Shown here: positions 4,201-25,967 of the stretch, piece after piece
How positions within the stretch are numbered: the first letter of the stretch is position 1
How the letters are laid out: every line of letters begins with the position of its first letter
Source: a virus
Length of the DNA: 25,967 bases
Strand: one strand, 5' to 3'
IMG/VR virus record: IMGVR_UViG_3300027708_000268
Span: 1 to 25,967 of that record
Notes under the pieces: generated by a model
The model's input: the letters and a program-made list of their open reading frames with translations, nothing else
Told to the model about the DNA's origin: nothing
The model's database searches: none
Program-made: the position numbers and the translations under genes

Positions 4201-7200
4201 TGAGCTGTGTTACCAACTGGGATTCTGAAACTGTCGGTCGCGTTAATAGCAAATGTAGCGCCTGTTACGACAGAGCTATTACCAACTTCTACTGTGTTTG
4301 TTGTGCCATCTACCCACAATACGTTAGCATTACTACCGTTTACAGCAAAGCTGCTTGCATTCAATGCTGGATTAACTGTTAAGGTAGAACCAGCATCACT
4401 AGCAACATTATTTGTATATGTTGTGTTCCATGCTAAGTTAGCTTGACCTAAGTAGTAAGTGTTATCAGCACTAGGAACAATGTTACCAGTGACATTAACA
4501 GTATTGCCCGCTGTAATGTTACCAGATATACTTAAGTTACCACCGTAGATATTACCAGCAGCACTTACTTCGCCTGCTGTGTCTACGTTGCCAGCAATTA
4601 CAGTACCACTTACACTAACAGCTGAACCAAAGAAGTTAGTACTGTACACGTTACCAGCAGCACTTACATCGTTACCTGTTAAGATGTAAGCACCAGTAAT
4701 ATTGCCACTTGAACTTACACCACCGTTAATTACTGTATTAGCTGTTACAATGTATGCGCCGTATACATTACCACTTGCTGTTACGGTAACAGCATGAATT
4801 ACATTGCCAGTTACATCGCCAGTAGCTGATACATTACCTGCTGTTGTTAAATTAGCACCAGTGATAGTACCTGTAGCAGTTACGTTACTGCCGTCAGTTG
4901 TAAATCCAACATTACCTAATAATTTACCATCTGCTCCTGCGTAAACAACTTCTGTACTTACCAAGCTAGCATCAAAGATGTTGCCACTGGCACTTAAAGT
5001 TCCTGCGGCTACGGTCGCTGTTACACTTACATTCGCGCCATCGTATACGAAACCGCTGTTACTTGCTAATACGCCATTGTCGCTGTATACAACTTCAGTG
5101 TTAACTAATCCAGTGTCGATGTTGCCTGATACACTGATGTTACCAGCAGCGATATTGCCCATTACACTTAGATTAGTGCCGTCTGTGGTCAAGCCTGATG
5201 TACCAACCATCTGACTACCTGTACTGATAAACACAATACTTGAATTACCAATACCACTGTCAAAGATGTTACCAGCTACACTAACATTACCAGTAGAGAT
5301 ATTACCTTGTACACTGATGTTTGTACCGTCAGTGGTTAGGCCTGAACTACCAGTTAACTTACTACCAGTTGTTGCATATACAATACTTGTGTTTGAGATA
5401 CTTGCGTCAACAATGTTACCAGAAACACTAATGTTACTTGAAAGTACTGTGCCGGCTACACTAACATTTGTACCATCTGTTGTAAAGCTGCTACTGCCTA
5501 ATAATTGACCATCTGCTCCGGAATAAACAACTTGTGTATTTGCTAAACTAGCATCAAAGATATTACCAGCTGCGCTGATAACATTACCTAAGAAGTAATC
5601 ACCAATCACATTTCCAACTGCGCTGATGAATCCAGCGGATGTAACATTACCGGCATTGACATATCCGTCTACATTTAGGTTACCTACCACATTTCCACTA
5701 AAGCTAATGCTATTAGCTGTTAATGTGCCTAATATGTTAGCGTTACCTGCGGTTATATTACCAGTTATACTTACTGTTGTGCCATCAAATGTAAAGCCAC
5801 TGTTACTTAATAACTGACCATTCAAGCCTGAGTAAACAATTTGTGTATTTGACAAGCTAGCATCAAATATATTGCCACTTGCGCTGATATTGCCACTTGA
5901 AACAGTACCTAATACACTGACATTTGTTCCATCTGTGGTAAATCCAACATTGCCTAATAATTTACCATCTGCCCCTGCGTAAACAACTTCTGTACTTGAT
6001 AAACTAGCATCAAATATATTGCCACTGGCACTTAAGTTTCCACTCGATACTGTACCAAGCACACTTACATTTGTACCATCAGTTGTAAATCCAGCGGCAC
6101 CTACTAGCTTACCGTTTAGACCAGAATAAACAACTTGTGTATTTGATAAGTTAGCATCAAAGATGTTGCCGCTTGCGCTGATATTGCCACTTGAAACAGT
6201 ACCAAGTACACTTACATTTGTTCCATCAGTTGTAAACCCGGCGGCGCCTAATAACTGACCATTCGCACCGGCGTAAACAACTTCTGTGTTTAATAAACTA
6301 GCGTCAAATATATTGCCACTAGCACTTAAGTTTCCACTTGAAACTGTTCCGAGTACACTTACATTTGTACCATCAGTTGTAAATCCAGCAGCGCCTAATA
6401 ACTGGCCACCTGCTCCGGCGTAAACAACTTCTGTGTTTAATAAACTAGCATCAAATATATTGCCAGCAGCACTTAGTGTAGTAGTTGTAATGTTGCCAGA
6501 GGCTATATTACCTGTTACACTTAAGTTACCAGTTTCCAATGTCTGTGTGCTGTCAACATATGTAAGATTAACACTGGTTGTTAATCCGCCTTGAGCATTA
6601 CCAAATACAACACTAGTATTGCCTACGCTACTGACATACGCAAATCCTGAACTAATATAACCAGTAGCACTGACGTTGCCAGCAGTTTGAATATCGCCAA
6701 CTGCGCTTGTAGCACCAGTAATTGTTAAATTACCAAGACTTACATTACCACTTGTGTTAGCTGTGGCACTCAATGTACTAAATGTGGCATTGCCTAATGT
6801 TGGGTTTACTAATGTTAAGTTTCCAATTACACTAAGTTGGTTGCTGGCATTTACTACTACTGTAACATTGTCAGGCAATACATCAAACTGTGTACCTGTT
6901 AGGCTTAATGCTGTGCCTGCTGAGTAAGTACCGGCACCAGAGAATTGTACAAAAGTAATTGTCGTAGTACCAACAGTAATTGGCGAAGTTTCTAAATTGT
7001 TTGTACATGTCCATCCAGAACTTGCATTCTTTGTACCTTCTTCTACAAACATGAATGCGCCGTACATTTGTGATGCTATATCAAAGTCACTTGTGCGTGT
7101 TAAAACTGTACTTGTAGGACCAGTGGATGTAACTGTATATATGCCGTTCCATGCTCCATCGCTGCCAGTATACGCACCTTCATTCTTAATTAAAACACGC

Positions 7201-10200
7201 GAATTGACACCGTAATCAGCATAAATTGTAGCTAAACTTACATCGTCGATGGCTAACTGACTTGATGTTGTAACAGTTATTGTTGCTCCGACTCCACTTG
7301 TTCCATTATTATAAACAACATTTGTAACTCCAGCAACATTAGCTAGATATGTTGTAGAAGCAACTTGTACAGAAGCTTTAGAACTTAAACCTTGAGCTAC
7401 AGTATCAACGTATGATTTACTAGCAGCATCTTGTGGATTAACGGGAGGAGTAGCTAAATTGGTAATGTAAGTATTACCTACATTGATATTGCCAGTTGCG
7501 CTAAACAGTACTCCGTTACCAGCATTGATATTTAATTGACCACTTGTTACTACGTTTGGCGTAACAACATTAGCACCAGTAATGTTACCATTTGTACCTG
7601 CGTAGATATTGCCGCTAGCCGACACATCACCTGCTGTAGCATATATGTTACTAGCACTTACATTATTTGTAACATTAACATTGGCACCAGCATCAATATT
7701 ACCACTTACCGATGCGTATGTAGCAAAAACGTTAGAGAACGTAGCATTTCCAGCTACGCTTAATAATCCACTAGTTGCGATATTGCCGCCAGTTACGTTG
7801 CCACTTGCTGATACTGTAACAGCATTAATTACGTTGCCAGTGATTGTACCGGTTGCTGATACATTACCTGATGTAGCAAAGTTAGCACCAGCGATGTTGC
7901 CAGCAGCTGATACATTGTTAGTAACATTAACATTATTAGCTGTTACAGTGCCAGTTACATTCAATGGACTTGTTACGTTGCCACTTAAACTTAATGATAC
8001 GCCATTTAATGCGTTGGATGAAACGACATTGCCCAATGCTGATACGTCTGTTGTAGCAACTACATATTGTGCTGTAGCAGTACCAGTTACGTTTAATGGA
8101 CTAATAACATTGCCACTTAAACTTAAGTTTGCTGAGTTAACTGAACCAGCTGATACAACATTACCTAAGGCACTTACGTCTGTTGTAGCAACTACATATT
8201 GTGAAGTAGTTGTTCCGGTTACATTCAATGGGCTTGTTACGTTGCCACTTAAACTTAATGTTGCGCCATTTAATGCGTTAGATGATACAACGTTACCTAA
8301 GGCACTTACATCGGTTGTAGCTACAACATACTGAGAAGTAGTTGTACCAGTTACGTTCAATGGGCTTGTTACGTTGCCACTTAAACTTAATGTTGCGCCA
8401 TTTAATGCGTCAGCAGTTGTAATATTACCAGTTGAGCTAACTGTGCCACTAGTTAATATATTTGCGCCAATTACGTTACCACCAGCACTGACATAATCAG
8501 TAACTGTTAAATTAGCCAATGTTCCTACTGTCTGTAAACTAGAATAAATTACGTTTGAACTTAATGTGTTGCCCGTTAAATTAGCAGCATTCATTGAACT
8601 AGCAATTACGCCAGTTAACTGACTACCGTTACCAATGTAGAAGCTAGCAGGATCAACAGTGATATTGCCGCTTGCGCTGATTTGACCAGTGGCGATATTG
8701 GCTAGTTGTACGTTGCCGCTTGTGCTGATTGTACTAGCATTAATGTTATTAACTGCGGTTAAATTACCACCAGTAATGTTTGAAGTTACATTCAAATCGC
8801 TTGTAACATTACCGCTTAAACTTAAAGTATTGGTATTAACGGCAGCATAAGCATTAATATTACCAGCCGAGCTAACTGTGTTAACAGCATAAACATTGTT
8901 AGCTGCGACATCACCTGTTACATTCAATGGGCTAACAACATTACCACTTAAACTCAATGACTGACTATTAACTGTGTCATAAGCATCAACATTACCAGCT
9001 GAACTGATTAAAGTTGTAGCAAAAACATTGGCTGCTGTAACTGTACCTGTTACATTCAATGGGCTTAAAACATTACCACTTAAACTTAAGTTAGCACCGT
9101 TTAATGCTGAGTATGTTGTGATATTGCCCTGAGCACTGATCTGACCAGCAGTTGAAACGTTACCAGCAGTTACGTTACCGCTAGCACTTACTGTAGCAGC
9201 TTTTACACTTCCACTTGCGCTAAGACCGGCAGAATAAACTGTGCCTTGTGCTGTTAAGTTACCAGCACCGTCTGTAGTTAAGTAAGATCCAGCAGTTACT
9301 AAACCAAATGAATCATTAACGTAAAATAACTCGCCTGGGGTTGTTGTACTTAGACTATACAAGTCAGTTGCTAACACACCAGAAGCAGAAATATTACCAG
9401 TAGCACTTAAGTTACCTAAACCGTCTGTTTCTACGCCCGATGCGCCTAAAACTTCACCGTCAGCACCAGCATATAATACAGTACTAGGAGTTGATAAAGT
9501 AGTAACATAAAGGCTATCAACATTGGCATTTGCGCCAACAACGATGTTACCAGTTGTACTTAATGTACCGGCACTGTATATTAAGTTACCACTACCAACT
9601 AACATACCATTTGAATCTGTGTAAACTACTTGTGTAGCTGTAATACCACTGTATATGTTGCCAGAAACTACACCAGTGGCAGTTACGTTGCCGCTAGGGA
9701 CAACAACATTACCAGCAATAACATTGCCAGTAGCACTTACGAAACCAGGCGTAGCTAAATTACCAGCATTAACATAGCCACTAACATCTAAATTTCCTAC
9801 CACATTGCCAGTAACAGTAACATTACTAACAACTAATGTACCGGTTACGTTGGCGTTACCAGTTATAATATCAGCGTAACTTAAAATAGCGATATTAGTC
9901 GCACCGCCAGTTGAACTAGTGTAAACAGTTACGAAACTTTTAAGTGTTTCATCCCATACGAAAGCGATATTAGTACTGTTGCCACGTTGTCCAATATAAC
10001 CAATATCTACTGTAGGGGAGCCAGTTTGATTACTGGCTAATAGCAGCAACGGATCTTCAATAGTAACGTTAGTTGTATCGATAGCAGTAACGTTACCTGT
10101 AATCGACAAGTTACCTGCGATGGTTAGATCTGATCCATAGCTTAAGTTGTTTGCTAAAAGTGTTGAAGTAATGGAATATGGCTGAACTTTAGCATTCGCA

Positions 10201-10283
10201 TTAATACCAAATTGTGTATTACCAGAGACAGCATCGCTGATCTGGTTATTATTAATTCTTGTTAAACTGTTTCCTGTAGTCAC
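1..10283 (-). CDS. Giant repeat-built tail fibre/adhesin-like structural protein (partial, runs off left edge)
   Basis: A stop-free frame of at least 3,427 codons; the codons at positions 3-44 still read TGNVTGASLIGTIA in frame. The start is GTG at 10283, preceded by TAGGAG 9 nt upstream; an in-frame TAG overlaps that ribosome site, so no earlier start is possible. The N-terminus (about residues 65-130) carries EDPLLLLASNQ and DIGYIGQRGNSTNIAFVWDE, a module common in T4-like fibres. The rest is mostly TGN-V-type beta repeats in 44-, 49- and 24-residue units. About residues 945-1140 (nt 6870-7440) form a tail-fibre domain with NPQDAASKSYVD, SVQVAST, FVEEGTKNASSGW and FVQFSGAG. Nt 3890-4240 hold the IPVGNTAQRP and GDGSTTVFTL modules. 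Nt 2540-2990 hold two STTGAV..GG.GV.GN modules. Nt 480-750 and 1621-1900 are duplicated ELANNQT...LTNWTYNSTANAW modules. The role in adsorption or virion decoration is inferred; the receptor is unknown. Expressed from the late promoter at 10308-10315. Confidence 0.85.
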   Translation of the reverse strand, partial: MTTGNSLTRINNNQISDAVSGNTQFGINANAKVQPYSITSTLLANNLSYGSDLTIAGNLSITGNVTAIDTTNVTIEDPLLLLASNQTGSPTVDIGYIGQRGNSTNIAFVWDETLKSFVTVYTSSTGGATNIAILSYADIITGNANVTGTLVVSNVTVTGNVVGNLDVSGYVNAGNLATPGFVSATGNVIAGNVVVPSGNVTATGVVSGNIYSGITATQVVYTDSNGMLVGSGNLIYSAGTLSTTGNIVVGANANVDSLYVTTLSTPSTVLYAGADGEVLGASGVETDGLGNLSATGNISASGVLATDLYSLSTTTPGELFYVNDSFGLVTAGSYLTTDGAGNLTAQGTVYSAGLSASGSVKAATVSASGNVTAGNVSTAGQISAQGNITTYSALNGANLSLSGNVLSPLNVTGTVTAANVFATTLISSAGNVDAYDTVNSQSLSLSGNVVSPLNVTGDVAANNVYAVNTVSSAGNINAYAAVNTNTLSLSGNVTSDLNVTSNITGGNLTAVNNINASTISTSGNVQLANIATGQISASGNITVDPASFYIGNGSQLTGVIASSMNAANLTGNTLSSNVIYSSLQTVGTLANLTVTDYVSAGGNVIGANILTSGTVSSTGNITTADALNGATLSLSGNVTSPLNVTGTTTSQYVVATTDVSALGNVVSSNALNGATLSLSGNVTSPLNVTGTTTSQYVVATTDVSALGNVVSAGSVNSANLSLSGNVISPLNVTGTATAQYVVATTDVSALGNVVSSNALNGVSLSLSGNVTSPLNVTGTVTANNVNVTNNVSAAGNIAGANFATSGNVSATGTITGNVINAVTVSASGNVTGGNIATSGLLSVAGNATFSNVFATYASVSGNIDAGANVNVTNNVSASNIYATAGDVSASGNIYAGTNGNITGANVVTPNVVTSGQLNINAGNGVLFSATGNINVGNTYITNLATPPVNPQDAASKSYVDTVAQGLSSKASVQVASTTYLANVAGVTNVVYNNGTSGVGATITVTTSSQLAIDDVSLATIYADYGVNSRVLIKNEGAYTGSDGAWNGIYTVTSTGPTSTVLTRTSDFDIASQMYGAFMFVEEGTKNASSGWTCTNNLETSPITVGTTTITFVQFSGAGTYSAGTALSLTGTQFDVLPDNVTVVVNASNQLSVIGNLTLVNPTLGNATFSTLSATANTSGNVSLGNLTITGATSAVGDIQTAGNVSATGYISSGFAYVSSVGNTSVVFGNAQGGLTTSVNLTYVDSTQTLETGNLSVTGNIASGNITTTTLSAAGNIFDASLLNTEVVYAGAGGQLLGAAGFTTDGTNVSVLGTVSSGNLSASGNIFDASLLNTEVVYAGANGQLLGAAGFTTDGTNVSVLGTVSSGNISASGNIFDANLSNTQVVYSGLNGKLVGAAGFTTDGTNVSVLGTVSSGNLSASGNIFDASLSSTEVVYAGADGKLLGNVGFTTDGTNVSVLGTVSSGNISASGNIFDASLSNTQIVYSGLNGQLLSNSGFTFDGTTVSITGNITAGNANILGTLTANSISFSGNVVGNLNVDGYVNAGNVTSAGFISAVGNVIGDYFLGNVISAAGNIFDASLANTQVVYSGADGQLLGSSSFTTDGTNVSVAGTVLSSNISVSGNIVDASISNTSIVYATTGSKLTGSSGLTTDGTNISVQGNISTGNVSVAGNIFDSGIGNSSIVFISTGSQMVGTSGLTTDGTNLSVMGNIAAGNISVSGNIDTGLVNTEVVYSDNGVLASNSGFVYDGANVSVTATVAAGTLSASGNIFDASLVSTEVVYAGADGKLLGNVGFTTDGSNVTATGTITGANLTTAGNVSATGDVTGNVIHAVTVTASGNVYGAYIVTANTVINGGVSSSGNITGAYILTGNDVSAAGNVYSTNFFGSAVSVSGTVIAGNVDTAGEVSAAGNIYGGNLSISGNITAGNTVNVTGNIVPSADNTYYLGQANLAWNTTYTNNVASDAGSTLTVNPALNASSFAVNGSNANVLWVDGTTNTVEVGNSSVVTGATFAINATDSFRIPVGNTAQRPVSPVIGMQRWNTTLSVLEMWSGSMWESIGATNFTVIQNEQFEGDGSTTVFTLTLAQIANQPQTTDSCIVTINGVVQIPTVSYSVSVYTLTFTEAPQVSDTIEVRELTTTTTVTALADPTGTSIFSLENPGTANLANANLVLTNGYYYVGDGSQLTNLSANVNATHIVSGASNVAIATPSSNVTFQVNGVSNVINVGTAQTTITGNFVPSANSVYSLGTAARQWKELHVSGNTIYIGNIPMSLTAGNGLSWDGNPIVTANANGTATTTGNMTITGNLTGGALFSGSDISASGNVQTGTNVLAGGLISATGTVTGSSLLGTVASLSGNVTGGNVVTGGLISAASTVTGSSFLGTVASLSGNVTGGNVLTSGISTAASYSASGNITGGNITLAASGQITSPIGTNGNVTINPDGTGLFVVTNVTPAVFANTRIATSSTTGAVTIAGGLGVAGNIISGTNITATGNIVGGNLRTAGAMSAAGNISGGNLLLASNGIITTPAGTNGNVNVNADGSGQFVVTASTPAYFANTLATTSSTTGAVVVVGGMGVGGNIVSGAGISAAGNITAAYFIGDGSQLTGVEASNANADSIIGSTLSSNVVISSLTQVGILASLSSTGAVTASQFDGSGAGLTSIPGANVSGTVALATQANHANTANAVAGSNVTGTTLSSNVVTSSLTQVGTLTSLSVSGNATGGNILTGGYVSATGNITGGYIIGNGSQLTGLPAGYSNATAASFLAAFGSNTISTTGAITSGNVTGSNVLTGGLISAAGQITANTLLVNSNANILGNLNVQGNITFINSNVIVTDDLYIELANNQSTHANINGVGLQAGNSGSGSLTNWTYGSTANAWSTNVGISATANITGGNILTSGLISSTGAVTASQFNGSGAGLTSIPGANVTGTVALATQANYANTANAVAGANVSGTVALATQANYANTANAVAGSNVTGSVSQANYANTANAVAGANVSGTVALATQANYANTANAVAGSNITGTTLSSNVVTSSLTQVGTLTSLSVSGNATSGNLLTGGLISSTGTITGSSHLGSVVSVTGNVTGASLIGTIATASQPSITSVGTLTSLSVSGNVTAASVVGGVMTGTSTSVTGNVTGASLIGTIATASQTSITAVGTLTSLAVTGNTTSGNLLTGGLISAGGQVSANTLYVSSNANILGNLNVQGNITFINSNVITTNDLYIELANNQTTYSNINGAGFNVGPIGAVLTNWTYNSTANAWSTNVGVSATANVTGGNLLTGGLISSTGTITGSSHLGSVVSVTGNVTGASLIGTIATASQPSITSVGTLTSLAVTGNTTSGNLLTGGLISSTGNVTGASLIGTIATASQTSITAVGTLTSLAVTGNTTSGNLLTGGLISSTGTITGSSHLGSVVSVTGNVTGASLIGTIA
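1249..1530 (-). repeat. 24-codon tandem repeats (ANYANTANAVAGANVSGTVA type)
   Basis: The plus-strand string gcgtttgctgt recurs at 1249, 1321, 1384 and 1456, spaced 72, 63 and 72 nt. A further copy of the block lies near 2238. On the minus strand this encodes ATQANYANTANAVAGANVSG-like units, a motif widespread in phage tail fibres. The units lie inside the giant fibre frame and preserve it. Confidence 0.85.
4969..6595 (-). repeat. 147-nt (49-residue) tandem repeat array in the giant fibre gene
   Basis: The anchor g(c/t)(a/g)tcaaa, encoding the FDAS segment in antisense, occurs at 5257, 5404, 5551, 5860, 6007, 6154, 6301 and 6448. Every step is 147 nt except 5551-5860 (309 nt). A related anchor lies at 4969. 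Each unit encodes about 49 residues: GNIFDASL, then VVYAGADGKLLG, then GFTTDGTNVSV, then GTVSSGNISAS. The five rightmost units are in perfect register. Confidence 0.92.
7940..8420 (-). repeat. 132-nt (44-residue) tandem repeats, first block
   Basis: Anchors on the plus-strand string (c/t)aatgg(a/g)ct fall at 7963, 8095, 8227 and 8359, exactly 132 nt apart. Each unit encodes 44 residues that include LSLSGNVTSPLNVTGTT and VVATTDVSALGNVV. The period is fixed and in frame, within the giant fibre gene. Confidence 0.92.
8780..9110 (-). repeat. 132-nt tandem repeats, second more diverged block
   Basis: The same caatgg-type anchor recurs at 8794, 8926 and 9058, again 132 nt apart. The sequence is more diverged than the block at 7940-8420. 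The offset between the two blocks (8359 to 8794, 435 nt) is not a multiple of 132, so they are separate arrays of one repeat family. Confidence 0.85.
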
Positions 10284-10292
10284 GGTTGTGGT

Positions 10293-10298
10293 CTCCTA
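10293..10298 (-). promoter_or_regulatory. Ribosome binding site for the giant fibre gene (decides the GTG start)
   Basis: On the minus strand the site reads TAGGAG, then nine bases to GTG at 10283. The TAG inside it is in frame with the giant gene and closes the frame upstream. GTG is therefore the only usable start near this site. Confidence 0.8.
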
Positions 10299-16985: not shown

Positions 16986-18140
16986 ATGACTATAGACGAA
17001 CTTATCACACAGGGAAATCACTTCAGAGCGATTTCACAACCAGAAAAAGCCATAGCTTGCTATGCGCAGGCATTTTTACAAAATCCTAAATTAGGCGCTG
17101 CTTATAATAACTACGGCAACGTCATACGTGAGATGGGGTTTCCTCGCCAAGCGATTGGATTTTTATTAAATGCCATTGATCTAAACCCCAACGACAGCAT
17201 AGCACAGTTTAATCTTGCTGTGGCTTACCTGCTGGCCGGTGATTTAGATCGCGGCTGGCGGCAATATGAAAAACGTTGGCACTTTGAGCATTTAGATGGT
17301 AAATTACCGCAACTAGCTCAGCCACGCTGGCAGGGCGAAAGTCTACAGGGACGAACCATCTTAGTCACTGGCGAACAAGGCCACGGTGATAATATACAAT
17401 TTGTACGTTTTGTTGAACAATTAATTACAGCCGGTGCCGGACAAGTTATAGTCAGTGTTGACCCCAGTCTCAAAACACTATTACAAGCATCATTTACCTC
17501 ATCGACTGTAGTGGTAAGTGGCAATGATATATTGCCACCATTTGATGTTTGGTCGCCTATCATGAGTGTACCAGGATTTTTAGGTATAACTTATGAAAAT
17601 TTACCCTATAAGATGCAGTATCTCACTGCCAGTAAAGACAGCATGGATGTGTGGCGGGATAGATTAGGGCTAAAACGTAAACTGCGTGTGGGATTTTGCT
17701 GGAGTGGACGTAGAGACAGTTGGATCAATCAGCATAAAGCTGTGCCATTTGCCAAGATGTTTGAGCTAGTCAAATGTAATCCCCAGTATGAGTGGATCAA
17801 TCTGCAGACAGACTGCAGCCAGGAAGAAGAAGCACAATTACTAGCTGAAGGTGTCAAGGCCTACCCTGGCACTATCACCTGCTGGAATGACACTGCGGGA
17901 TTGATACAGCAATTAGATGTGGTCGTGGCTGTAGATACTGCGGTAGGACATTTGTCTGGCGCTATGGGCAGACCATTTTGGCTACCACTAAATCAGTTTG
18001 GTCAAGATTGGCGTTGGCTGTTGGACCGTAATGACAGTCCCTGGTATTCCAGCTGCAGAATATTCCGTCAACCCAGTATCGGCAACTGGGATGAACCCTT
18101 GGCTCGCATACATAATAATTTAAAACTGTTTAAGATCTAA
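16986..18140 (+). CDS. TPR-repeat protein with glycosyltransferase-like domain, 384 residues
   Basis: Residues 4-36 and 38-71 are tetratricopeptide repeats (for example EKAIACYAQAFLQNPKLGAA). Residues 87-115 (GDLDRGWRQYEKRWHF to PRWQGESL) lead into a glycosyltransferase-like domain with LVTGEQGHGDNIQFVRF (127-142), LRVGFCWSG (233-241), DTAGLIQQLDVVVAVDTAVG (302-321) and DWRWLLDRNDSPWY (341-354). This arrangement is typical of bacterial TPR/glycosyltransferase-fold proteins of about 380-600 residues. It may modify a host surface polysaccharide or phage virion protein; donor and acceptor are unknown. It is the only gene on the plus strand, flanked by opposite-strand genes, which suggests an acquired cassette with its own promoter. 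There is no clear Shine-Dalgarno, and no earlier in-frame start is evident. Confidence 0.82.
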   Translation: MTIDELITQGNHFRAISQPEKAIACYAQAFLQNPKLGAAYNNYGNVIREMGFPRQAIGFLLNAIDLNPNDSIAQFNLAVAYLLAGDLDRGWRQYEKRWHFEHLDGKLPQLAQPRWQGESLQGRTILVTGEQGHGDNIQFVRFVEQLITAGAGQVIVSVDPSLKTLLQASFTSSTVVVSGNDILPPFDVWSPIMSVPGFLGITYENLPYKMQYLTASKDSMDVWRDRLGLKRKLRVGFCWSGRRDSWINQHKAVPFAKMFELVKCNPQYEWINLQTDCSQEEEAQLLAEGVKAYPGTITCWNDTAGLIQQLDVVVAVDTAVGHLSGAMGRPFWLPLNQFGQDWRWLLDRNDSPWYSSCRIFRQPSIGNWDEPLARIHNNLKLFKI

Positions 18141-18194
18141 GTTGCGGGGTATTAGTTCGTCGAGCTGCCGTCGCCAAACAGCAGCCACTTTGAC

Positions 18195-18959
18195 TTATTG
18201 CTTATATTGAGCAGACCAACTTTCATCAGTGTTGTCGGTGAATGTCACTGATAGATCGGATCTAGCACTGGGTGCGACATAAAACTCAAATTCAGGATTT
18301 TCACTGATGCTGATGTCTAAATCAGCAGTGACGACCGTGACACCGCCGTGGCTAACTGTCATACTGCGTACATAGTGCGCAGGTGCGTAATCGCGTGTTA
18401 ATTGATCCATGGCCAAACCCGAATCGTTGGGATGACGTATCTGTGCTTGTAGTAGTGCTGGGCGACCAGGTCTAGCACTGAGTTCATATAGTTTGATACT
18501 GCCAATACCCTTGGCCGCCGCACGGCTAACCGGGGCCGAACAGCCACCCGATGCTTTGATAAATCTCACTGCTTGATGATAACTGCCGTCATTGACACGA
18601 GCCACGGCTCTAATCAGTGTATACTCGTTGATTCTCACACGAGTCTCGATGTCGGCTTGACCAGATTCTCCAGTGAAACTGAAATGTGCGGCCACAGGAC
18701 TGGGATTTTGATCTATGATCAACCAAATATCAGTGATGTAACGTTGTTCAGACTGCGGAAACATCGCGTGAATACTGATGGGCACTATGGCAGCATCTTC
18801 GGCACGACTGGCAGCAGTCAATGTGACAGTGCTGGCATCTTCTTCGATGACGACCCCGGGAAATACGGCCTGTGATATCCGCTGCCAACTGTCAGGATTC
18901 ACTGCGCCAGCAGTCAAGGACAAGGTCAATGCGGTTAATATCAGTAATAGTGTTTTCAT
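18195..18959 (-). CDS. Quinoprotein dehydrogenase-associated SoxYZ-like carrier protein (auxiliary metabolic gene)
   Basis: Residues 1-19 form a signal peptide (MKTLLLILTALTLSLTAGA), so the product should be periplasmic. Residues 24-142 are SoxY-like: LIIDQNPSPVAAHF, TRVRINEYTLIRAVA and KASGGCSAP. Residues 155-254 are SoxZ-like: QIRHPNDSGLAMDQLTRDY and DISISENPEFEFYV. Cys140, in GGCSAP, is the only cysteine and corresponds to the carrier cysteine of SoxY. The 254-residue fused form matches the family encoded beside pyrroloquinoline-quinone (methanol-type) dehydrogenases rather than separate SoxY and SoxZ; its biochemical role is not settled. The frame is intact. It lies between HNH and glycosyltransferase genes in a cargo region. 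AAAAGGAG stands a rather long 13 nt before the ATG. A 60-nt sample (18481-18540) has 33 G+C, richer than the adjacent HNH gene, consistent with bacterial origin. Confidence 0.88.
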   Translation of the reverse strand: MKTLLLILTALTLSLTAGAVNPDSWQRISQAVFPGVVIEEDASTVTLTAASRAEDAAIVPISIHAMFPQSEQRYITDIWLIIDQNPSPVAAHFSFTGESGQADIETRVRINEYTLIRAVARVNDGSYHQAVRFIKASGGCSAPVSRAAAKGIGSIKLYELSARPGRPALLQAQIRHPNDSGLAMDQLTRDYAPAHYVRSMTVSHGGVTVVTADLDISISENPEFEFYVAPSARSDLSVTFTDNTDESWSAQYKQ

Positions 18960-18980
18960 GTGTATACTTATGCTCCTTTT

Positions 18981-19874
18981 TTACAACGTGGTCCATGCCA
19001 GCGTGTGTACATGGACTGGTTTATGTTTGCACTTGTCGCCGTGATACGCATTATATCTTGCTTTACTGGCTTGAACATGACAGTAGGGACACTGTTTTTT
19101 AGGTTGTTGTGTATAGTGTGTGCCTTCTTCTATTTGTTTTGCTACTGTGGCACTTATTGCTTCTCCTTGCTCTTTACTTTTTTTGACCCCTTTACATCCT
19201 TTTGAAATAGAATCTTTTTGTGATTGGGGCATGAGACCGCGAGGATTTTCTTTGAAATACTTAAGTGAGCCAGCACTTATATTAGCCTTTTGCTGTGAAC
19301 TGCGTTTTTGCCCGCGAGTTTTTACAGTGACTACATTGGGATCTCGATTAGAATTTTTTTCGCATATGTCACCATGATATTGTTTGTAGTTTGATGGCGT
19401 AAACTGTCTTTGGCAATGCGGACATGTTTTTTTGTTTGCGTCTCGTTTTCTAGCAGCATTTCCAATATTTTCTAATACTTCAGACCTGTCTTCTTTTTTT
19501 CCTTTGTTAGGAGCAGCTCTACCTTTCATCTTAATAGAGTGTGATACCGAAAATTCTTCTTTTAACTTGGCATATAGTCTGCCAGTAACACGATGTCTGT
19601 TTCCATTTTCATCTTCCATATTTACCATACGCCATGCGGCAGCAATAAGCCCATAGTTTTCGCCAGGTGGCAACATTTTCCTTAGTAGTAAATGACATAC
19701 TAAATGCTCATGAGCAGTTAACTCTATTAGATTCGATGACTCATCATCACCACCTATACATCTTGGTATAATATGATGCGTTTCTGAATATCCATCCCAA
19801 TATCTTATCTTGGCATTATTAATAATGGCATAATAGGTTTTTGTATATTTGTTGTTTAAAAATTTATTATTCAT
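18981..19874 (-). CDS. Free-standing HNH homing endonuclease with two zinc-finger motifs
   Basis: The HNH core reads SETHHIIPRCIGGDDESSNL with HEHLVCH about 30 residues into the protein, giving the His-His, Asn and His ligands. A NUMOD3-like DNA-contact segment follows (KGRAAPNKGKK). Two matching fingers of form C-x2-C-x12-H-x3-C follow: CPHCQRQFTPSNYKQYHGDIC spans one, and CPYCH...AYHGDKC near the C-terminus the other. I chose ATG at 19874; the frame also extends to TTG at 19931, but that start abuts the terminator. Neither start has a clear ribosome site. The gene is AT-rich (a 60-nt sample at 19441-19500 has 19 G+C) and sits just after gene 23, a conserved spot favoured by homing genes. 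About 298 residues; appears intact. Confidence 0.85.
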   Translation of the reverse strand: MNNKFLNNKYTKTYYAIINNAKIRYWDGYSETHHIIPRCIGGDDESSNLIELTAHEHLVCHLLLRKMLPPGENYGLIAAAWRMVNMEDENGNRHRVTGRLYAKLKEEFSVSHSIKMKGRAAPNKGKKEDRSEVLENIGNAARKRDANKKTCPHCQRQFTPSNYKQYHGDICEKNSNRDPNVVTVKTRGQKRSSQQKANISAGSLKYFKENPRGLMPQSQKDSISKGCKGVKKSKEQGEAISATVAKQIEEGTHYTQQPKKQCPYCHVQASKARYNAYHGDKCKHKPVHVHTLAWTTL

Positions 19875-19940
19875 ATTTTTATTTAGCAAAACTTTACATT
19901 CACTTAATAAGTTTGAATTATATTTAAACAAAAAGCCAAC

Positions 19941-19963
19941 AAAAAAGCGCCTTGCGGCGCTTT
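19941..19963 (-). terminator. Rho-independent terminator downstream of gene 23
   Basis: On the minus strand the sequence reads AAAGCGCC, a GCAA tetraloop, GGCGCTTT, then a run of T: an 8-bp stem with a GNRA loop and U-tract. It lies 60 nt past the gene 23 stop and before the HNH gene, closing the head transcription unit. Confidence 0.93.
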
Positions 19964-20023
19964 CTTGCTTCCCATCCCTGAGAATTTTTGTAACAAAATA
20001 CTGTACGTAAGTCTTTGATTTTT

Positions 20024-21220
20024 CTAGGAAAAGCTCAAATTTTGTACGGCAATTTCACCAACGTAGTCGGCGGCATTTCCAAAACTGCTGGCGGTGTTAG
20101 TCAATTCAACAAACCCGTAGCGAGTCATAAATGAAACCACTGGTTCGAAGGTACTTGGATCCAATACAACACCACTACTCATTAAAGGAATATATGGGCA
20201 GTAGAACGCAGCAGCATCAGCTTCACTAGAACCTTTGTAACCAACCAACACTGACTGTGTGTCAGGAGCATAGCTGTTTACAAACACGCGCATCGAGCCA
20301 TTTAATGTACCAACAAATTTAGTGTTTGTAGGTGCTTCAAATGTGCCTTCTGTGGTGCGAGCAAATGCTGATGTTGTCGCTGACTGTAATACTGTCAATG
20401 CTGCTGAACTTACAACAGCCCAGTTACCTGCGCCACGACGTGTACGCTGGGCGATCAAGTTAGCAACACGATTGATAAGAACAGCTAGAGCAGCGTGTTC
20501 GTCACCAACGAATGTAGCAGTACCTGAAACGGTAGCTTGGTTGTATGTGTACTCAGTGGCAGCTAAACTACTTAGACTTAATAAGATCTCTTGGTCGATT
20601 TCAGCTGTGATTTCCTGTGCTAAGGCAGCCATGATTTCTGCTTCAACATCGATACCATGCATAGCCTGCGCATCTTGAGCACTTTCAAATGTCCAACGAG
20701 CTTGTAACTTACGTGTCTTAGCTTCAACAGCTTGCTTTAAGATCTGGATGGAGATCTGCTTACCGCCTGTGCCTTCCATTGTAGCTGTATTGTTACCGGT
20801 ATAACCAGTAGCAGTAGTAGTACCCTGGGGAACAGTTGAATATGCTGTGGCGATGGTAAATGGGCTTAACGCTTCTTGACCAGCTGTTACACTTGTAGCT
20901 GCTTGACTGTTGTCAGTTAAACTCTGTGCATAACGTACACGTAATGTATGGATCTGACTGACAGGACCAGTCATTGGCTGTACGCCCACTAATTCGTTGG
21001 CGATAACTGTTGGCATCACACGACGGATCACTGGAAGAATTACACGATTAAGTGTGGCAATGTTACCTGAAGCTGTACTACCCGAAGTAGCGTTCTCTTT
21101 CAAATACTTGCGTGTGTTTTCTAGGATTACACTCATCGAGTTGCGTTTAGCGCCATTTAAGCCTTCTAGTAACGCACCTTTGGTTTCACCCCAACGGCTT
21201 TCTAATAAATCTTGTGACAT
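20024..21220 (-). CDS. 23: Major capsid protein, T4 gp23 family, 398 residues
   Basis: Forms the hexameric capsid lattice. Recognisable gp23 blocks: RRVMPTVIANELVGVQPMTG (66-85), KQAVEAKTRKLQARWTFESA (162-181), QAMHGIDVEAEIMAALAQEI (185-204), RRGAGNWAVVSS (261-272) and DPSTFEPVVSFMTRYGF near the C-terminus. The N-terminal 45 residues are helical and charged, like the gp23 pro-region that the gp21 protease removes; a cut near KYLKE is possible but not certain. At 398 residues it is shorter than T4 gp23 (521), mainly between about residues 100 and 155, where T4 has its insertion domain. AAGGAGA lies 6 nt before the ATG. The terminator at 19941-19963 follows. Confidence 0.95.
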   Translation of the reverse strand: MSQDLLESRWGETKGALLEGLNGAKRNSMSVILENTRKYLKENATSGSTASGNIATLNRVILPVIRRVMPTVIANELVGVQPMTGPVSQIHTLRVRYAQSLTDNSQAATSVTAGQEALSPFTIATAYSTVPQGTTTATGYTGNNTATMEGTGGKQISIQILKQAVEAKTRKLQARWTFESAQDAQAMHGIDVEAEIMAALAQEITAEIDQEILLSLSSLAATEYTYNQATVSGTATFVGDEHAALAVLINRVANLIAQRTRRGAGNWAVVSSAALTVLQSATTSAFARTTEGTFEAPTNTKFVGTLNGSMRVFVNSYAPDTQSVLVGYKGSSEADAAAFYCPYIPLMSSGVVLDPSTFEPVVSFMTRYGFVELTNTASSFGNAADYVGEIAVQNLSFS

Positions 21221-21242
21221 TTAAGTCTCCTTTGTCTTTTTT

Positions 21243-22343
21243 TTACAGCCCTGCCAAACGCTTTAAGTCAATAACGTTGCTAGTTGTGTCGTCAACGCTA
21301 TCGTGCTCTTGGCCACGGGCAGATTTATCGCCAGTTACAGTGGTCAATGATTCAGTAATCACTTTTGGTGTTTTTGCTGAACGATTTTCCAATACAGCTG
21401 GTAGATACTTTTCAAAAGCGGCCTTTAACCTCGGGGTCTGGACGCTTTCCAATAAATTGCGCATAATCTCTGCTTTTTCTTCGTTTAGAGGACTTAATAG
21501 CTCATCTAATGTACTGCTGCGAAGATTGCTTTCTTTGACTATACGTAACTCACGTTCTTTTGATTCAACCAAAACTTTTGCCTTTTGGGTGAATCGGATG
21601 GCCTCGGCCAGTTTAAGATCTTTTTGACTGATGACATCATGCAGCTTGCGAACTTCTGCTTTCTCATTGAGATGAGTAGCTCCAAATTCTGCTGAGTATG
21701 CTTCAAAAATCCTGCGACCAAAATTGTTCTCACGAGCAATCTGTATGTCTTCTTTTAACTGACCAAGTTCGGCCTTGAGATGATGGCTAACAGCACGAGT
21801 CATCTTGGCTGCGGATTCTTTTACAAATCTCTGCTTTAATGACTGTAGTTTTCTACGAGCTTCTGCTACTAAACGTACACGGGCTTCCACCACTTCACGT
21901 TTGTCTTGAGCAAATTCTCTGATCTCTTGTGCTAACGCATGAACGATAAAGCCCTGTAATTTCTCTAGGCCTTCATTGTGCGTTTTTCTGTCACGACGTA
22001 GTTCGCCGAGTTCTTCTGCCAATTTACTGACCAAAAATCCATTGAACTTTTGGGCACTTTCTTTCATTGTAGTTTGGAACTTGACGCGATCTTGGGCTAA
22101 GGCTTTTTTCTCAGCTCTCACACCGTTGACTTCTGCGACGAGACTTTCTGTTACCATGCGATCTAAGGCTTCCACCATCACTTGTCGATCATGTTGATAA
22201 CGCTGCGCGAACTCTTCACGGAGTTCTGCACGAGCCTGCTCACGAGCTTCAACTAACTTGGCTTCCCAAGCTTCATTGATCTCTTGACGAGTTTCCTCGT
22301 TGATCAGTTCGCTATCTAGTAACGGTTTTAGACTATCTAACAT
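21243..22343 (-). CDS. 22: Prohead core scaffold protein, T4 gp22 family, 366 residues
   Basis: The main internal scaffold on which the T4-type prohead forms, later cut up by gp21. It is almost entirely charged heptad-like helix: AWEAKLVEAREQARAELREE near the start, then long coiled-coil stretches to about residue 290. Family signatures are ARENNFGRRIFEAYSAEFG (about 204-222) and MRNLLESVQTPRLKAAFEKY (about 290-310). The C-terminal 50 residues are looser and Ser/Thr-rich. It lies directly before gene 23 with a 22-nt gap. AAGGGA lies upstream of the ATG, and a 101-nt gap separates it from gene 21. Confidence 0.92.
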   Translation of the reverse strand: MLDSLKPLLDSELINEETRQEINEAWEAKLVEAREQARAELREEFAQRYQHDRQVMVEALDRMVTESLVAEVNGVRAEKKALAQDRVKFQTTMKESAQKFNGFLVSKLAEELGELRRDRKTHNEGLEKLQGFIVHALAQEIREFAQDKREVVEARVRLVAEARRKLQSLKQRFVKESAAKMTRAVSHHLKAELGQLKEDIQIARENNFGRRIFEAYSAEFGATHLNEKAEVRKLHDVISQKDLKLAEAIRFTQKAKVLVESKERELRIVKESNLRSSTLDELLSPLNEEKAEIMRNLLESVQTPRLKAAFEKYLPAVLENRSAKTPKVITESLTTVTGDKSARGQEHDSVDDTTSNVIDLKRLAGL

Positions 22344-22388
22344 AGTAATTCCCTTATATCTAAACTATACTTTACAGTACAGCATTTC

Positions 22389-22402
22389 CTGCCTTACGGC
22401 AG
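22389..22402 (-). other. Small GNRA-type hairpin between genes 21 and 22
   Basis: CTGCC and GGCAG form a 5-bp stem around a four-base loop (GTAA on the minus strand). There is no T run after it, so it is not a convincing terminator. It lies in the 101-nt gap between gene 21 and gene 22 and might stabilise or process the late transcript. No late-promoter box is seen in this gap. Confidence 0.4.
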
Positions 22403-22444
22403 ATACTTTGGCAGCTGATCACTCAACCGCTAAAATTCTCAACA

Positions 22445-23089
22445 TTAAAGTTTTAATCCTTTAATTAAACGTAGTACTTCGTTTGAAACTGCTCGCTGTG
22501 CTCGACTGGTCTTGGCCGGATCCTTAAACATTTCCAGTAGCTTTTGACCACCGCGATGATTTAATAATCCTTCGTAGATCGCTGTAGGATATGCGTTTGG
22601 CGCCGAAGGTTGGGCTACTATATCCACAGTGACGATTTCAAAATCACTGACGTGTCCATTGTGATCATTGACATTGCCTGATCCACGACTACTTACACCC
22701 AATTTTACACCTGAATCCAACATGGTTTTTACTAATGATCCCATCGGTGTGGGCAATATCTTTAGTTTACCATAGCCACAAGCATCATCCATCCACATGT
22801 TTTCTATCATGTGACTGACACGATCGAGATTGATCTTGAGATCGTCGGGATGATCTACTTCACCTAATACACTATGACCGGTTTTAATCTGCTCATTGAT
22901 AGTGTCAACAGCTTTGGCGATTTCATGTACTGGATATACTCGTTCGTTGGCGTTTCTTACCCCGCCTTCTATGCATATTCCCTTCATGTAAAGCGTTTTA
23001 CCTGATCCATCGGCAGCTTCCTCAGACTCCAATACTACACGAGCCTGAGTAAAGCTGAGATGTTCTTTAAGATAGGTATTGCGAGCCAT
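22445..23089 (-). CDS. 21: Prohead core protease, T4 gp21 family (S21 fold), 214 residues
   Basis: Serine protease that matures the prohead by cleaving scaffold, core and capsid proteins. The catalytic pattern of the herpesvirus-assemblin-like S21 family is visible: HSVLGEVDHP with His80, and VKLGVSSRGSG with the serine at 133 or 134. ERVYPVHEIAKAVD (49-62) and FEIVTVDIVAQPSAPNAY (150-167) are further family blocks. The length is close to T4 gp21 (212). It starts 9 nt after the acidic core gene stop with no strong ribosome site, suggesting coupling. It carries an LKEH at the N-terminus and a basic C-tail. Confidence 0.95.
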   Translation of the reverse strand: MARNTYLKEHLSFTQARVVLESEEAADGSGKTLYMKGICIEGGVRNANERVYPVHEIAKAVDTINEQIKTGHSVLGEVDHPDDLKINLDRVSHMIENMWMDDACGYGKLKILPTPMGSLVKTMLDSGVKLGVSSRGSGNVNDHNGHVSDFEIVTVDIVAQPSAPNAYPTAIYEGLLNHRGGQKLLEMFKDPAKTSRAQRAVSNEVLRLIKGLKL

Positions 23090-23098
23090 GTCTATCTA

Positions 23099-23980
23099 TT
23101 ATGCCTTAGGGAAAGGAGTTCTAGTATTAACACCAGCGGCTTGAGCAGTCACAGGCTTAGGCGTAGGTTCCATCTTGGCACCGTAGCCATCTTTAGCAGG
23201 TACGTTCTTAAACTTTCCAGCTCCGGGCAAATCGCCACGGCCTTGATCAGCATAGCTAGTTGGTGCTTTATAAGCGGCTGTGCCATCGGGATTGGCTTCA
23301 CTGGCTGTATTTTTTACTGGACGACCCTGCATGCCAGCTGCGCCACTGTTAAATCTCGTTGGGCTCTTAGGATTAGCACCGTTGTCGCCGTGCTTAACTG
23401 GGGCAACTTTGTCTAATGCTATGTTCTCGCTCATAGGCTGTGATTCATCATGGAATTCACTTGTGTCGTCATCCATGTAAGCATCGCCGCCAACTTCATC
23501 ACTGTTGGGTTCCATCTCATCATGCTCATGGCCATGATCACCCATCAACATCTCAAATTCAGCCATTAATTCATCTAATTTGTCTTCGAGATCAACTACA
23601 CGGTCTTCGATGTCATGCTCAATTTTATTGCCTTCATCGTGGTCGTGTTCGAGGTCATGTGTTTCGTCTTCGCCAGCTTCTTCGGCTTCGTCGTCGAATT
23701 CTACGTCTTCTTCCTCGTCTTCGTACATGCCTTCTTCTTCTGTTTCTACTTCACGCATTAAATCTTGGCTGGCATCTCCGGAAGTGTGATCCATGCCTTC
23801 TTCGATGTCTTCATCGCACTCGCAAGGATTAGCGTGACAATGTTCACACTCTTCTTCGTTCATTAAAGTTTCATAGATTTCGCGTGACTTTTCCACTACG
23901 ATATCGTGGAAAAGAGCTTTGGCTTTATCTTCTTCATCGTTGATTACATATTCAATCAACTGTTCAAATTTTGACGTCAT
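23099..23980 (-). CDS. Acidic prohead core protein (gp67/gp68-like), 293 residues
   Basis: The N-terminal helix FEQLIEYVINDEEDKAKALF with DIVVEKSREIYETLM resembles the start of T4 core protein gp67, from memory. Residues 42-150 are extremely rich in Glu and Asp with many His (for example HDLEHDHDEG), including a short amphipathic stretch near 127-145. Cys45, Cys48, Cys53 and Cys55 make a CEHC...CEC cluster that could bind metal. Residues 190-293 are basic, Gly/Pro-rich and unstructured. Position between portal and protease genes fits an internal core protein cut by gp21. It is much longer than T4 gp67 (80) or gp68 (141), perhaps merging both roles. AAAGGAGA precedes the ATG. Confidence 0.75.
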   Translation of the reverse strand: MTSKFEQLIEYVINDEEDKAKALFHDIVVEKSREIYETLMNEEECEHCHANPCECDEDIEEGMDHTSGDASQDLMREVETEEEGMYEDEEEDVEFDDEAEEAGEDETHDLEHDHDEGNKIEHDIEDRVVDLEDKLDELMAEFEMLMGDHGHEHDEMEPNSDEVGGDAYMDDDTSEFHDESQPMSENIALDKVAPVKHGDNGANPKSPTRFNSGAAGMQGRPVKNTASEANPDGTAAYKAPTSYADQGRGDLPGAGKFKNVPAKDGYGAKMEPTPKPVTAQAAGVNTRTPFPKA

Positions 23981-24098
23981 TTAATTCTCCTTTAGAATGG
24001 CTCGTACAATATTTAAGGAGGAATTAGAAAAAGACGTATATTAAGGGGAGATACTACCAACTTTTGTGTAAAAGATATTACATATTATGTAAAAAGTA
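23981..24098. other. 118-nt intergenic gap with a short palindrome at 24078-24092
   Basis: The gap between the 71-residue gene and the acidic core gene holds TTACATA-T-TATGTAA (24078-24092), a perfect 7-bp inverted repeat around one base, and a further attacat copy right beside it. The loop is too small and the T run too weak for a terminator. No late-promoter box is present. The function is unknown. Confidence 0.4.
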
Positions 24099-24314
24099 TT
24101 ACATAGGTTCTGCCGCAGGGGCATATTGAAGTCTTAATAATTTTAATTTGGCTTTGAATTCTGCTTTGCGCAGATCATTCATTTTTCTCAGCTTGTTGAT
24201 CTGTGCCAACGTAAGGCGAGTTTTACGCAGTTGACCCATCTGAGGTTGGGTGTTGTCGTCATTGACGTTTTGATAAGCACTGGGATCACGCTGATAAAGT
24301 TCGTTTAATATCAT
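24099..24314 (-). CDS. Small basic conserved protein between portal and prohead-core genes, 71 residues
   Basis: The product is strongly basic after residue 28: LRKTRLTLAQINKLRKMNDL, then RKAEFKAKLKLLRLQY, a predicted helix. Similar short proteins lie beside gene 20 in T4-like marine phages, from recall. It occupies the place of T4 genes 67/68 but does not resemble the acidic gp67, so I leave it unnamed; a role in the prohead core or portal vertex is inference. The late-promoter box TATAAATAC ends only 7 nt before the ATG, so a transcript from it would be nearly leaderless. There is no Shine-Dalgarno beyond a weak GAG. Confidence 0.75.
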   Translation of the reverse strand: MILNELYQRDPSAYQNVNDDNTQPQMGQLRKTRLTLAQINKLRKMNDLRKAEFKAKLKLLRLQYAPAAEPM

Positions 24315-24321
24315 AGTCTCG

Positions 24322-24329
24322 TATTTATA
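24322..24329 (-). promoter_or_regulatory. T4-type late promoter, exact TATAAATA
   Basis: The minus strand reads TATAAATACGA, a perfect match to the T4 late consensus, in the 27-nt gap between the portal stop and the 71-residue gene. It would drive the core, protease, scaffold and capsid genes down to the terminator at 19941-19963. Confidence 0.82.
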
Positions 24330-24341
24330 ACTAGGAGAAAA

Positions 24342-25967
24342 TTATAAACTAGCAGCATTATTAGCAGCGGGCATACCTGGAGTCGGGGTTACAGCAGGCT
24401 GTGGCCCGGCCCCAGTGTCAACATCACCCATGCCTAGACCACTGTCAGCCATTTCATCGCCTGTGGCTAAGTCAGCACTTAAGCCTGCGGGAGTGATACC
24501 AATGTTGCGCAAGTCAGCACCTTGTGCTGTGGCAACCTCGGGATTATCACGCTCTTCGCGCCACATTTCTTCATTTTCACGTATTTCAGCTTCACTTAGG
24601 CCTAGGAAACGTTTCATAGCGAAACGTTTGCTCATGTAAGGCAGTGGCTCTACATTAGAAAAATTAGTGATACGCGCAGTGTCTAACTCACTTTGACGAT
24701 AGCTAGCAAAATTCTGTGGCTCAGTTAAGGTAATATTGAATAAGCCATTGTCAATATTAAACCCGCGCCACTTCATAAACATCTTAAACTCATCATCTAA
24801 CTTCTGCATGATCAGTCTTTGTAGTCGTTCACAGTATTTGTTAAAGCGGAATTCTTGTATCAACGCTGTGCCCACACGCCCATCATTCATTGGCTGACTA
24901 CTGTCGTCTGGGCCAGTGGGTAAATAGCTACTGGGCACTCGTAGGCCGCGAGCCATTTTATTATTGAAGTACTTTAAGTCATCGATTTCGCCTAAGTTTG
25001 AATTTTTGGTAAACACACCGGCACTTAACGCAAACGTATGATAGCCATGATAAATTTCATCACCGTCGATAGTTAAAGTACCAACATCCATTGGCTCATC
25101 TAAGTATTCAATTTTAGCAATTCGATGGTTGTGAACGCTTTCTTTTTTACGGAAATCAGACCAGCTAGTATAGCCATACTGTTTAACCATACTAGTCAGT
25201 CCTGTTGCTGTAAATCCTTTGTCTATACTCCAATTGCGAACTTTTTTATCTTTGTTTAATATTGCCAATTCATTAACGATGTTGATATTTTTATTCAGTT
25301 CATCGATAATATCATTAACAGTTATTTCGTGCGTAGTTTTGTCTTTAACCATATCGATCACACGCTTAAGCATACTGTGAGAATATGACACTGATTGCAA
25401 TTCTTTCATATTGCTACGACGTTTTTCGTTGTTTTTCCAATCTTTTAGGTTACGGCCAGATACAAATTTACTACGTTCTTCTCTTAGCTCACTAGTCCAA
25501 CCAGCTTTTTGTTGTTCACATACCCATTGACGATATTCTTCATCTTTGGCCATTTTTTCTAGTTTTGTTTTGTTTGCTATTTTAAATGCAGCTCTACTGT
25601 TAGCGGCCCGGATTGCCTTTGAATCATCATCTAATGATTCAAAGTACTTTTTAAGTCCAACTGCCTTATTCTCATTTAATTCTACTAGTTCTTCTTCTGT
25701 TAATGAACTATACCAATTTGTAAATCTTTCACCAACAGTTTTACAATATTTTTCATATTCTGCTAGATTATTATCTTTAAGATTTTGTAATCTACGTTTT
25801 GCGGCTAGTGTACCCAACTGTTGAGATTCTTTAGAAAATCCATGATGTTGATGTAGTTTTTGATGGTCGTGCCATGCCATCCAGCATAAATTTTCCGGGC
25901 TGTTATCATGCCTGTTAAAATTTACATGATGTCTGACATCATATTTGCCATCACTGTATTCTTCGTT
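24342..25967 (-). CDS. 20: Portal vertex protein, T4 gp20 family, interrupted by an intein (partial, runs off right edge)
   Basis: The frame is open from the stop at 24342 to the window edge; the 29 codons right of the first ATG (25880) also read through, so that ATG is internal. Codons 24342-25001 encode the C-terminal 219 residues of the portal: SNLGEIDDLKYFNNKMARGL, VGTALIQEFRFNKYCERL, LTEPQNFASYRQSELDTARI and RFLGLSEAEIRENEEMW, all gp20 family blocks. The portal ring anchors the packaging motor and the neck at one capsid vertex. The extein is cut before the Ser at 24999-25001. The tail is Gly/Pro/Ala-rich and probably disordered. The N-terminal part lies outside the window. Confidence 0.92.
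   Translation of the reverse strand, partial: NEEYSDGKYDVRHHVNFNRHDNSPENLCWMAWHDHQKLHQHHGFSKESQQLGTLAAKRRLQNLKDNNLAEYEKYCKTVGERFTNWYSSLTEEELVELNENKAVGLKKYFESLDDDSKAIRAANSRAAFKIANKTKLEKMAKDEEYRQWVCEQQKAGWTSELREERSKFVSGRNLKDWKNNEKRRSNMKELQSVSYSHSMLKRVIDMVKDKTTHEITVNDIIDELNKNINIVNELAILNKDKKVRNWSIDKGFTATGLTSMVKQYGYTSWSDFRKKESVHNHRIAKIEYLDEPMDVGTLTIDGDEIYHGYHTFALSAGVFTKNSNLGEIDDLKYFNNKMARGLRVPSSYLPTGPDDSSQPMNDGRVGTALIQEFRFNKYCERLQRLIMQKLDDEFKMFMKWRGFNIDNGLFNITLTEPQNFASYRQSELDTARITNFSNVEPLPYMSKRFAMKRFLGLSEAEIRENEEMWREERDNPEVATAQGADLRNIGITPAGLSADLATGDEMADSGLGMGDVDTGAGPQPAVTPTPGMPAANNAASL
25002..25967 (-). mobile_element. Intein with HNH endonuclease domain inside the portal gene (partial)
   Basis: The C-terminal splicing block reads MDVGTLTIDGDEIYHGYHTF then ALSAGVFTKN, ending in Asn (25002-25004) followed by the extein Ser. 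The penultimate residue is Lys where His is usual. An HNH endonuclease core lies at the window edge: DGKYDVRHHVNFNRHDNSPE with NLCWMAWHDHQKLHQHH, giving His-His, Asn and a distal His pair. Between them lie about 230 residues of charged helices, likely DNA-contact segments. The block is AT-rich (25261-25320 has 15 G+C in 60). The N-terminal splicing block is outside the window. Excision should restore the portal, if active. Confidence 0.85.

Follow-up and report, generated by a model that had tools for sequence, protein, structure and literature searches.

A fused SoxYZ carrier of the quinoprotein-associated subtype as cargo of a T4-like lake phage, with a probable role in PQQ-dependent alcohol oxidation

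Fused soxYZ genes on phages are already published: Kieft et al. (2021; PMC8190135) described them on T4-like or other myovirus contigs in a set of 191 contigs and read them as genes of thiosulfate oxidation. In that work the phage soxYZ of Lake Croche was placed in a 'Betaproteobacteria clade', the phage:total gene share was put at 3% for lakes and 34% for Tara samples, and soxYZ counts served to estimate what viruses add to the oxidation of thiosulfate in lake and ocean waters. In the thiosulfate multi-enzyme system itself, true SoxY and SoxZ (2oxg, 4uwq) are two separate proteins, with the cysteine in a C-terminal GGCGG. A further group, the quinoprotein dehydrogenase-associated SoxYZ-like carriers of the NCBIfam family TIGR04557, includes PP_2677 of the ped cluster of P. 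putida. According to PMC11237559, a direct part in sulfur metabolism is unlikely for SoxYZ fusions lying beside PQQ-ADH or xoxF (clades S2 and S4); a viral sequence is noted there in the xoxF-linked S4 clade. The bacterial homologue is reviewed in PMC12997753, where the roles considered are maturation, redox control or shielding PQQ against sulfur adducts, and no function is regarded as proven. Both PMC12997753 and PMC11237559 associate SoxYZ fusions with quinoproteins; apart from a remark in the latter, we found no paper among those searched that links phage soxYZ with PQQ, and phage gene content and PqqA linkage, treated here, do not figure in the passages of PMC11237559 consulted. Freshwater T4-like phages of Methylophilaceae from Lake Baikal, which carry methanol dehydrogenase and PqqA, appear to support methanol oxidation by their hosts (PMC7678222).

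The DNA we analysed is a 25,967-nucleotide stretch (hereafter the window) of a T4-like phage from a lake, IMG/VR record IMGVR_UViG_3300027708_000268. On its minus strand, an open reading frame at 18195-18959 begins with ATG, has no internal stops and encodes a 254-residue carrier. Pfam SoxY matches residues 31-140 (18540-18869, minus strand; 109.4 bits) and Pfam SoxZ residues 162-252 (18204-18476, minus strand; 88.3 bits), both over their cut-offs. TIGR04557 gives 237.9 bits against a curated equivalog cut-off of 140, whereas the models of true SoxY (TIGR04488, 62.6 bits against 125) and true SoxZ (TIGR04490, 61.2 against 76) stay below theirs. The only cysteine, C140, lies in a GGCSAP motif (18531-18548, minus strand) in which G138, G139 and C140 are invariant. 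This sulfur-carrying arm is internal: as in TIGR04557, both halves belong to a single chain and are separated by GGC(S), and the free C-terminal GGCGG arm of the true SoxY set is absent, C140 of 254 being followed by the SoxZ half. The gene is thus firmly identified as an intact, fused SoxYZ of the quinoprotein-associated subtype, as the sequence-only reading had proposed from both carrier halves and the single cysteine; the idea that such a subtype would be new on a phage fell to PMC8190135.

The AlphaFold model of the carrier (pLDDT 80.9) retains the folds of true SoxYZ, its SoxY half matching 2oxg_Y with a TM of 0.84 and its SoxZ half 2ox5_A with a TM of 0.79. The loop that holds the cysteine shows little order and is tethered at either end, with pLDDT below 50 at residues 142-147. 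Residues 1-19 (18903-18959, minus strand; MKTLLLILTALTLSLTAGA, followed by VN) read as a putative Sec-type signal peptide and form a separate N-terminal helix in the model, suggesting that the carrier is exported to the periplasm. In its fusion, GGCSAP arm, signal-like N-terminus and score, the carrier resembles bacterial TIGR04557 members; unlike these it stands alone, with no dehydrogenase, cytochrome, SoxH or rhodanese gene beside it, and it is at most 54% identical to any bacterial copy found. It shares fusion and the ggCs cysteine with the phage genes of Kieft et al. and lacks the 'CC' motif of their marine copies.

The neighbourhood is that of a phage. Upstream of the carrier lie the major capsid gene gp23 (20024-21220, minus strand; Pfam Gp23, 3.1e-97), a gene at the gp22 position with a PHROG match of unknown-function class, the prohead protease gp21 and a T4 portal (Pfam, PHROG); on the other flank are fibre-like genes. 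Compared with the gp23 of jumbo T4-like phages (280-470 kb), the product shows 65-67% identity, and one related contig measures 303 kb. Between gp23 and the carrier, 21 bp upstream of the latter and on the same strand, is a TTG-started HNH-type homing endonuclease gene (18981-19931, minus strand; phrog_655, 1.5e-40). On its other side the insertion site is bordered by a plus-strand gene at 16986-18140 encoding a TPR and GT9-like glycosyltransferase (Pfam), which follows gp23 in 14 of 80 contigs with related gp23, at 48-69% identity. The carrier was not seen in any of these 80 within the flanks available, and relatives that have no SoxYZ likewise show HNH genes after gp23. In some relatives gp23 and the glycosyltransferase-like gene are only 67-208 bp apart, against 1,883 bp here, where the HNH gene and SoxYZ lie between them. 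Given these empty sites, SoxYZ has been inserted at a variable position and the gene at 16986-18140 is not cargo; the inserted part is the HNH gene and SoxYZ only.

A sister contig, IMGVR_UViG_3300009182_003548, assembled separately from metagenome 3300009182, agrees with 18055-25967 of the window at 99.87% over 7.9 kb (9 mismatches, one gap). Since this independent contig repeats the junction of capsid and sox genes, a chimera there is very unlikely; taken with the empty sites, it rules out an artefactual or host insert. The same metagenome stands in the host-search list of PMC8190135. The carrier is therefore firmly phage cargo between phage genes, as had been suggested; of the segment 16900-19000, for which a chimeric host insert had been named as a possible refutation, 16986-18140 proved to be a conserved gene of the phage lineage, leaving the HNH and SoxYZ genes as what was inserted. 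The T4 late promoter TATAAATA has a single match in the window, below chance expectation and not near the carrier gene.

Where the gene came from was addressed with two trees, building on the earlier proposal to place it among bacterial homologues. In both, the window carrier groups with that of a T4-like phage (L041) and that of a bacterial genome, G563 (support 99/98-99), inside a fused betaproteobacterial group; true SoxYZ form their own clade apart from the fused carriers (100/100). Plasmid copies from Azoarcus and Caballeronia fall in the same clade as the window carrier, and we infer a betaproteobacterial origin from this. With the sister contig, the empty site and this nesting among bacterial copies, the gene is a host-derived metabolic gene within a phage genome, an AMG. 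No isolated phage in INPHARED carries it. A Methylophilaceae host was considered and rejected: the putative Methylophilaceae-like copies, from small genomes, fall in another clade and are not nearest to the window carrier, in contrast to the Methylophilaceae hosts of the Baikal phages, which also differ in carrying the dehydrogenase itself, with no mention of sox in the paper's text. Two small genomes of 1.3-1.4 Mb (G672 and G750; loci L232 and L233) encode divergent fused carriers of about 30% identity in a separate clade; in the tree built with true SoxYZ, L232 adjoins these, on long branches that leave its placement unsure.

The bacterial relatives lie in a consistent setting. In G563, whose copy is the closest found (54% identity), the carrier follows fhcB-A-D-C, the formylmethanofuran dehydrogenase/formyltransferase genes of one-carbon oxidation (the B subunit scoring below its model's cut-off), and a SoxH-type quinoprotein relay hydrolase (TIGR04559). 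Other near copies adjoin SoxH, methanol dehydrogenase, cytochrome c and substrate-binding protein genes, two of them also PqqBCE, and plasmid copies in Azoarcus, Phyllobacterium and Ruegeria share this quinoprotein setting. A PQQ-ADH was matched in all 21 genomes with near or Methylophilaceae-like carrier copies (over cut-off in 19). SoxB exceeded its cut-off in only four of the 21, G563 among them, so that kin of G563 may oxidise thiosulfate.

Similar carriers are widespread in viruses. A pattern-based profile scan of IMG/VR, whose count is a lower bound, recovered at least 41 viral contigs with intact fused carriers. TIGR04557 matched all 29 aligned viral representatives and was the best model, by a wide margin over true SoxY and SoxZ, for each of ten carriers scored singly, seven of which exceeded its cut-off while three fell just under it (134-136 bits). 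Scanning viral contigs with a true SoxY alignment (two patterns) gave no true SoxY among the matches listed. Most marine viral carriers have an extra CC motif, absent from the window carrier; since Kieft et al. describe such a 'variable CC motif', the marine set is very probably theirs. About four changes of viral label are needed on the tree, of which starred branches force at least two, and phages have therefore probably acquired the carrier more than once. Its marine viral copies show dN/dS of 0.11-0.52, indicating purifying selection. A PQQ alcohol dehydrogenase was found in none of 33 viral records tested, nearly all with SoxYZ, and a scan of viral contigs for methanol dehydrogenase with narrow patterns gave one contig, L255 (a 78.7 kb record), on which a cytochrome c gene lies close to the dehydrogenase and SoxYZ is absent from the stretch examined.

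Many marine carrier contigs also encode a peptide, MAW(S/N/T)KP.ITEI.VGLEINSYACAE, that is PqqA, the precursor of PQQ; TIGR02107 scores the viral peptides at about 37-41 bits against a cut-off of 20. It is encoded on the carrier's strand, 0.5-4.6 kb downstream, in 15 of the 18 viral carrier contigs whose downstream sequence extends for 4.6 kb or more, and at none of 80 gp23 control loci. These contigs come from related marine phages and therefore represent few, non-independent events. PqqA is absent from the window and from the L041 record, which counts against a quinoprotein role, and the carrier is absent from all 21 larger viral records with PqqA, all of which are fragments. The idea that PqqA specifically marks SoxYZ phages was rejected, many phage fragments having PqqA and no SoxYZ. 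Viral PqqA genes are in fact common: one narrow pattern found at least 120 stretches (for example L050:12151, L054:13505, L061:1671, L076:5659 and L088-L207), mostly with neither SoxYZ nor a PQQ dehydrogenase on the fragment. In L076, a marine phage with both SoxYZ and PqqA, genes for HesB/IscA-like (PF01521) and NifU_N/IscU-like (PF01592) iron-sulfur assembly proteins lie at 5036-5359 and 6760-7152, within about 2 kb of the carrier.

Since all 29 viral representatives match TIGR04557, the two-pattern scan found no true SoxY and PqqA accompanies 15 of the 18 carriers with enough downstream sequence, the phage 'soxYZ' most likely supports a PQQ-dependent alcohol or methanol dehydrogenase of the host. 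We regard a service to the quinoprotein system as the best reading, with a probability of roughly 0.7; the association with PQQ dehydrogenase genes itself is seen in bacterial relatives and not on the phage record, and the 33 viral records with no PQQ alcohol dehydrogenase, like the minimal phenotype of the homologue in RB-TnSeq of P. putida (PMC12997753), count against it. According to this model, a jumbo-type T4-like phage would have taken the gene from a methylotroph-like betaproteobacterium and inserted it beside a homing endonuclease, between gp23 and the glycosyltransferase-like gene. The exported product, with SoxY and SoxZ units in one chain and its single cysteine on the tethered loop between them, would enter the periplasm of the infected host and there carry sulfur for the PQQ-dependent alcohol or methanol dehydrogenase system, acting together with a SoxH-type zinc hydrolase and a rhodanese of the host. 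One may speculate that its most likely job is to strip sulfur species from the enzyme, from PQQ or from its vicinal-cysteine site; the exact carrier chemistry in this scheme is speculative. The oxidation of methanol or alcohol, with the electron flow that comes from it, could then continue, which would benefit the phage. Of the early suggestion that the phage tunes 'periplasmic alcohol or sulfur oxidation' in a methylotroph, the alcohol branch and a methylotroph-like host appear likely, and the sulfur branch is disfavoured.

That sulfur branch is the published reading, in which phage SoxYZ replaces or boosts the host's SoxYZ in the SoxXA-SoxB-SoxCD cycle and raises its energy yield. It draws on the proposal made for fused phage soxYZ in PMC8190135, on a cysteine and fold that are Sox-like and on the SoxB of the nearest bacterial genome, yet our family tests favour the quinoprotein-associated carrier. 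The carrier scores below the true SoxY and SoxZ cut-offs, belongs to a clade separate from true SoxYZ and holds its cysteine in an internal GGCSAP rather than a C-terminal GGCGG; 17 of the 21 carrier genomes have no SoxB over cut-off while all match PQQ-ADH, and the two-pattern scan found no true SoxY in viral contigs. We therefore consider it unlikely that the gene serves thiosulfate oxidation. Alternatively, the carrier might scavenge reactive sulfur in infected or stressed cells with no single dehydrogenase partner. A single-cysteine carrier would suit such detoxification, and protection of PQQ enzymes from sulfur adducts is discussed in PMC12997753 and PMC11237559, but the consistent adjacency of the bacterial gene to PQQ dehydrogenase genes and the PqqA linkage in marine phages make this quite improbable. 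A chance passenger of the mobile HNH gene, useless to the phage, would explain the same-strand endonuclease 21 bp away, the absence from 80 gp23 relatives and a GC content above the window's (0.486 against 0.413), but is very hard to reconcile with an intact gene retaining all invariant residues, with a second T4-like phage that keeps a related copy at a different locus with no HNH alongside and with purifying selection on viral copies elsewhere.

The quinoprotein reading of the carrier bears on the published estimates, and the value of the finding lies in the evidence that the published functional label of phage soxYZ, thiosulfate oxidation, is probably wrong. For phage soxYZ as a whole, we lean somewhat towards a phage strategy that sustains PQQ-dependent methanol or alcohol oxidation in methylotrophs, together with phage PqqA and elsewhere methanol dehydrogenase. 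If so, estimates of phage thiosulfate oxidation from soxYZ counts would need revising, and the shares reported for lakes and Tara samples would belong to one-carbon metabolism and not to sulfur cycling. That the carrier is paired again and again with PqqA in marine phages offers a concrete test of the PQQ reading.

Other features of the window deserve mention. The portal gene gp20 (24342-25880, minus strand; 261-4618 in L002) apparently holds two inteins, the first ending in HNFALSSGIFVHN before S, as seen in L002, and the other in HTFALSAGVFTKN before S, where the window stops. In the window this second intein has an unbroken frame, and in L002 it is frame-shifted between 3329 and 3407, either a real difference or an assembly error. 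At 3-10295, a single minus-strand frame of at least 3,431 aa with fibre-like repeats and TGN/VTGN motifs runs off the left end, and the plus-strand frames listed there are its shadows.
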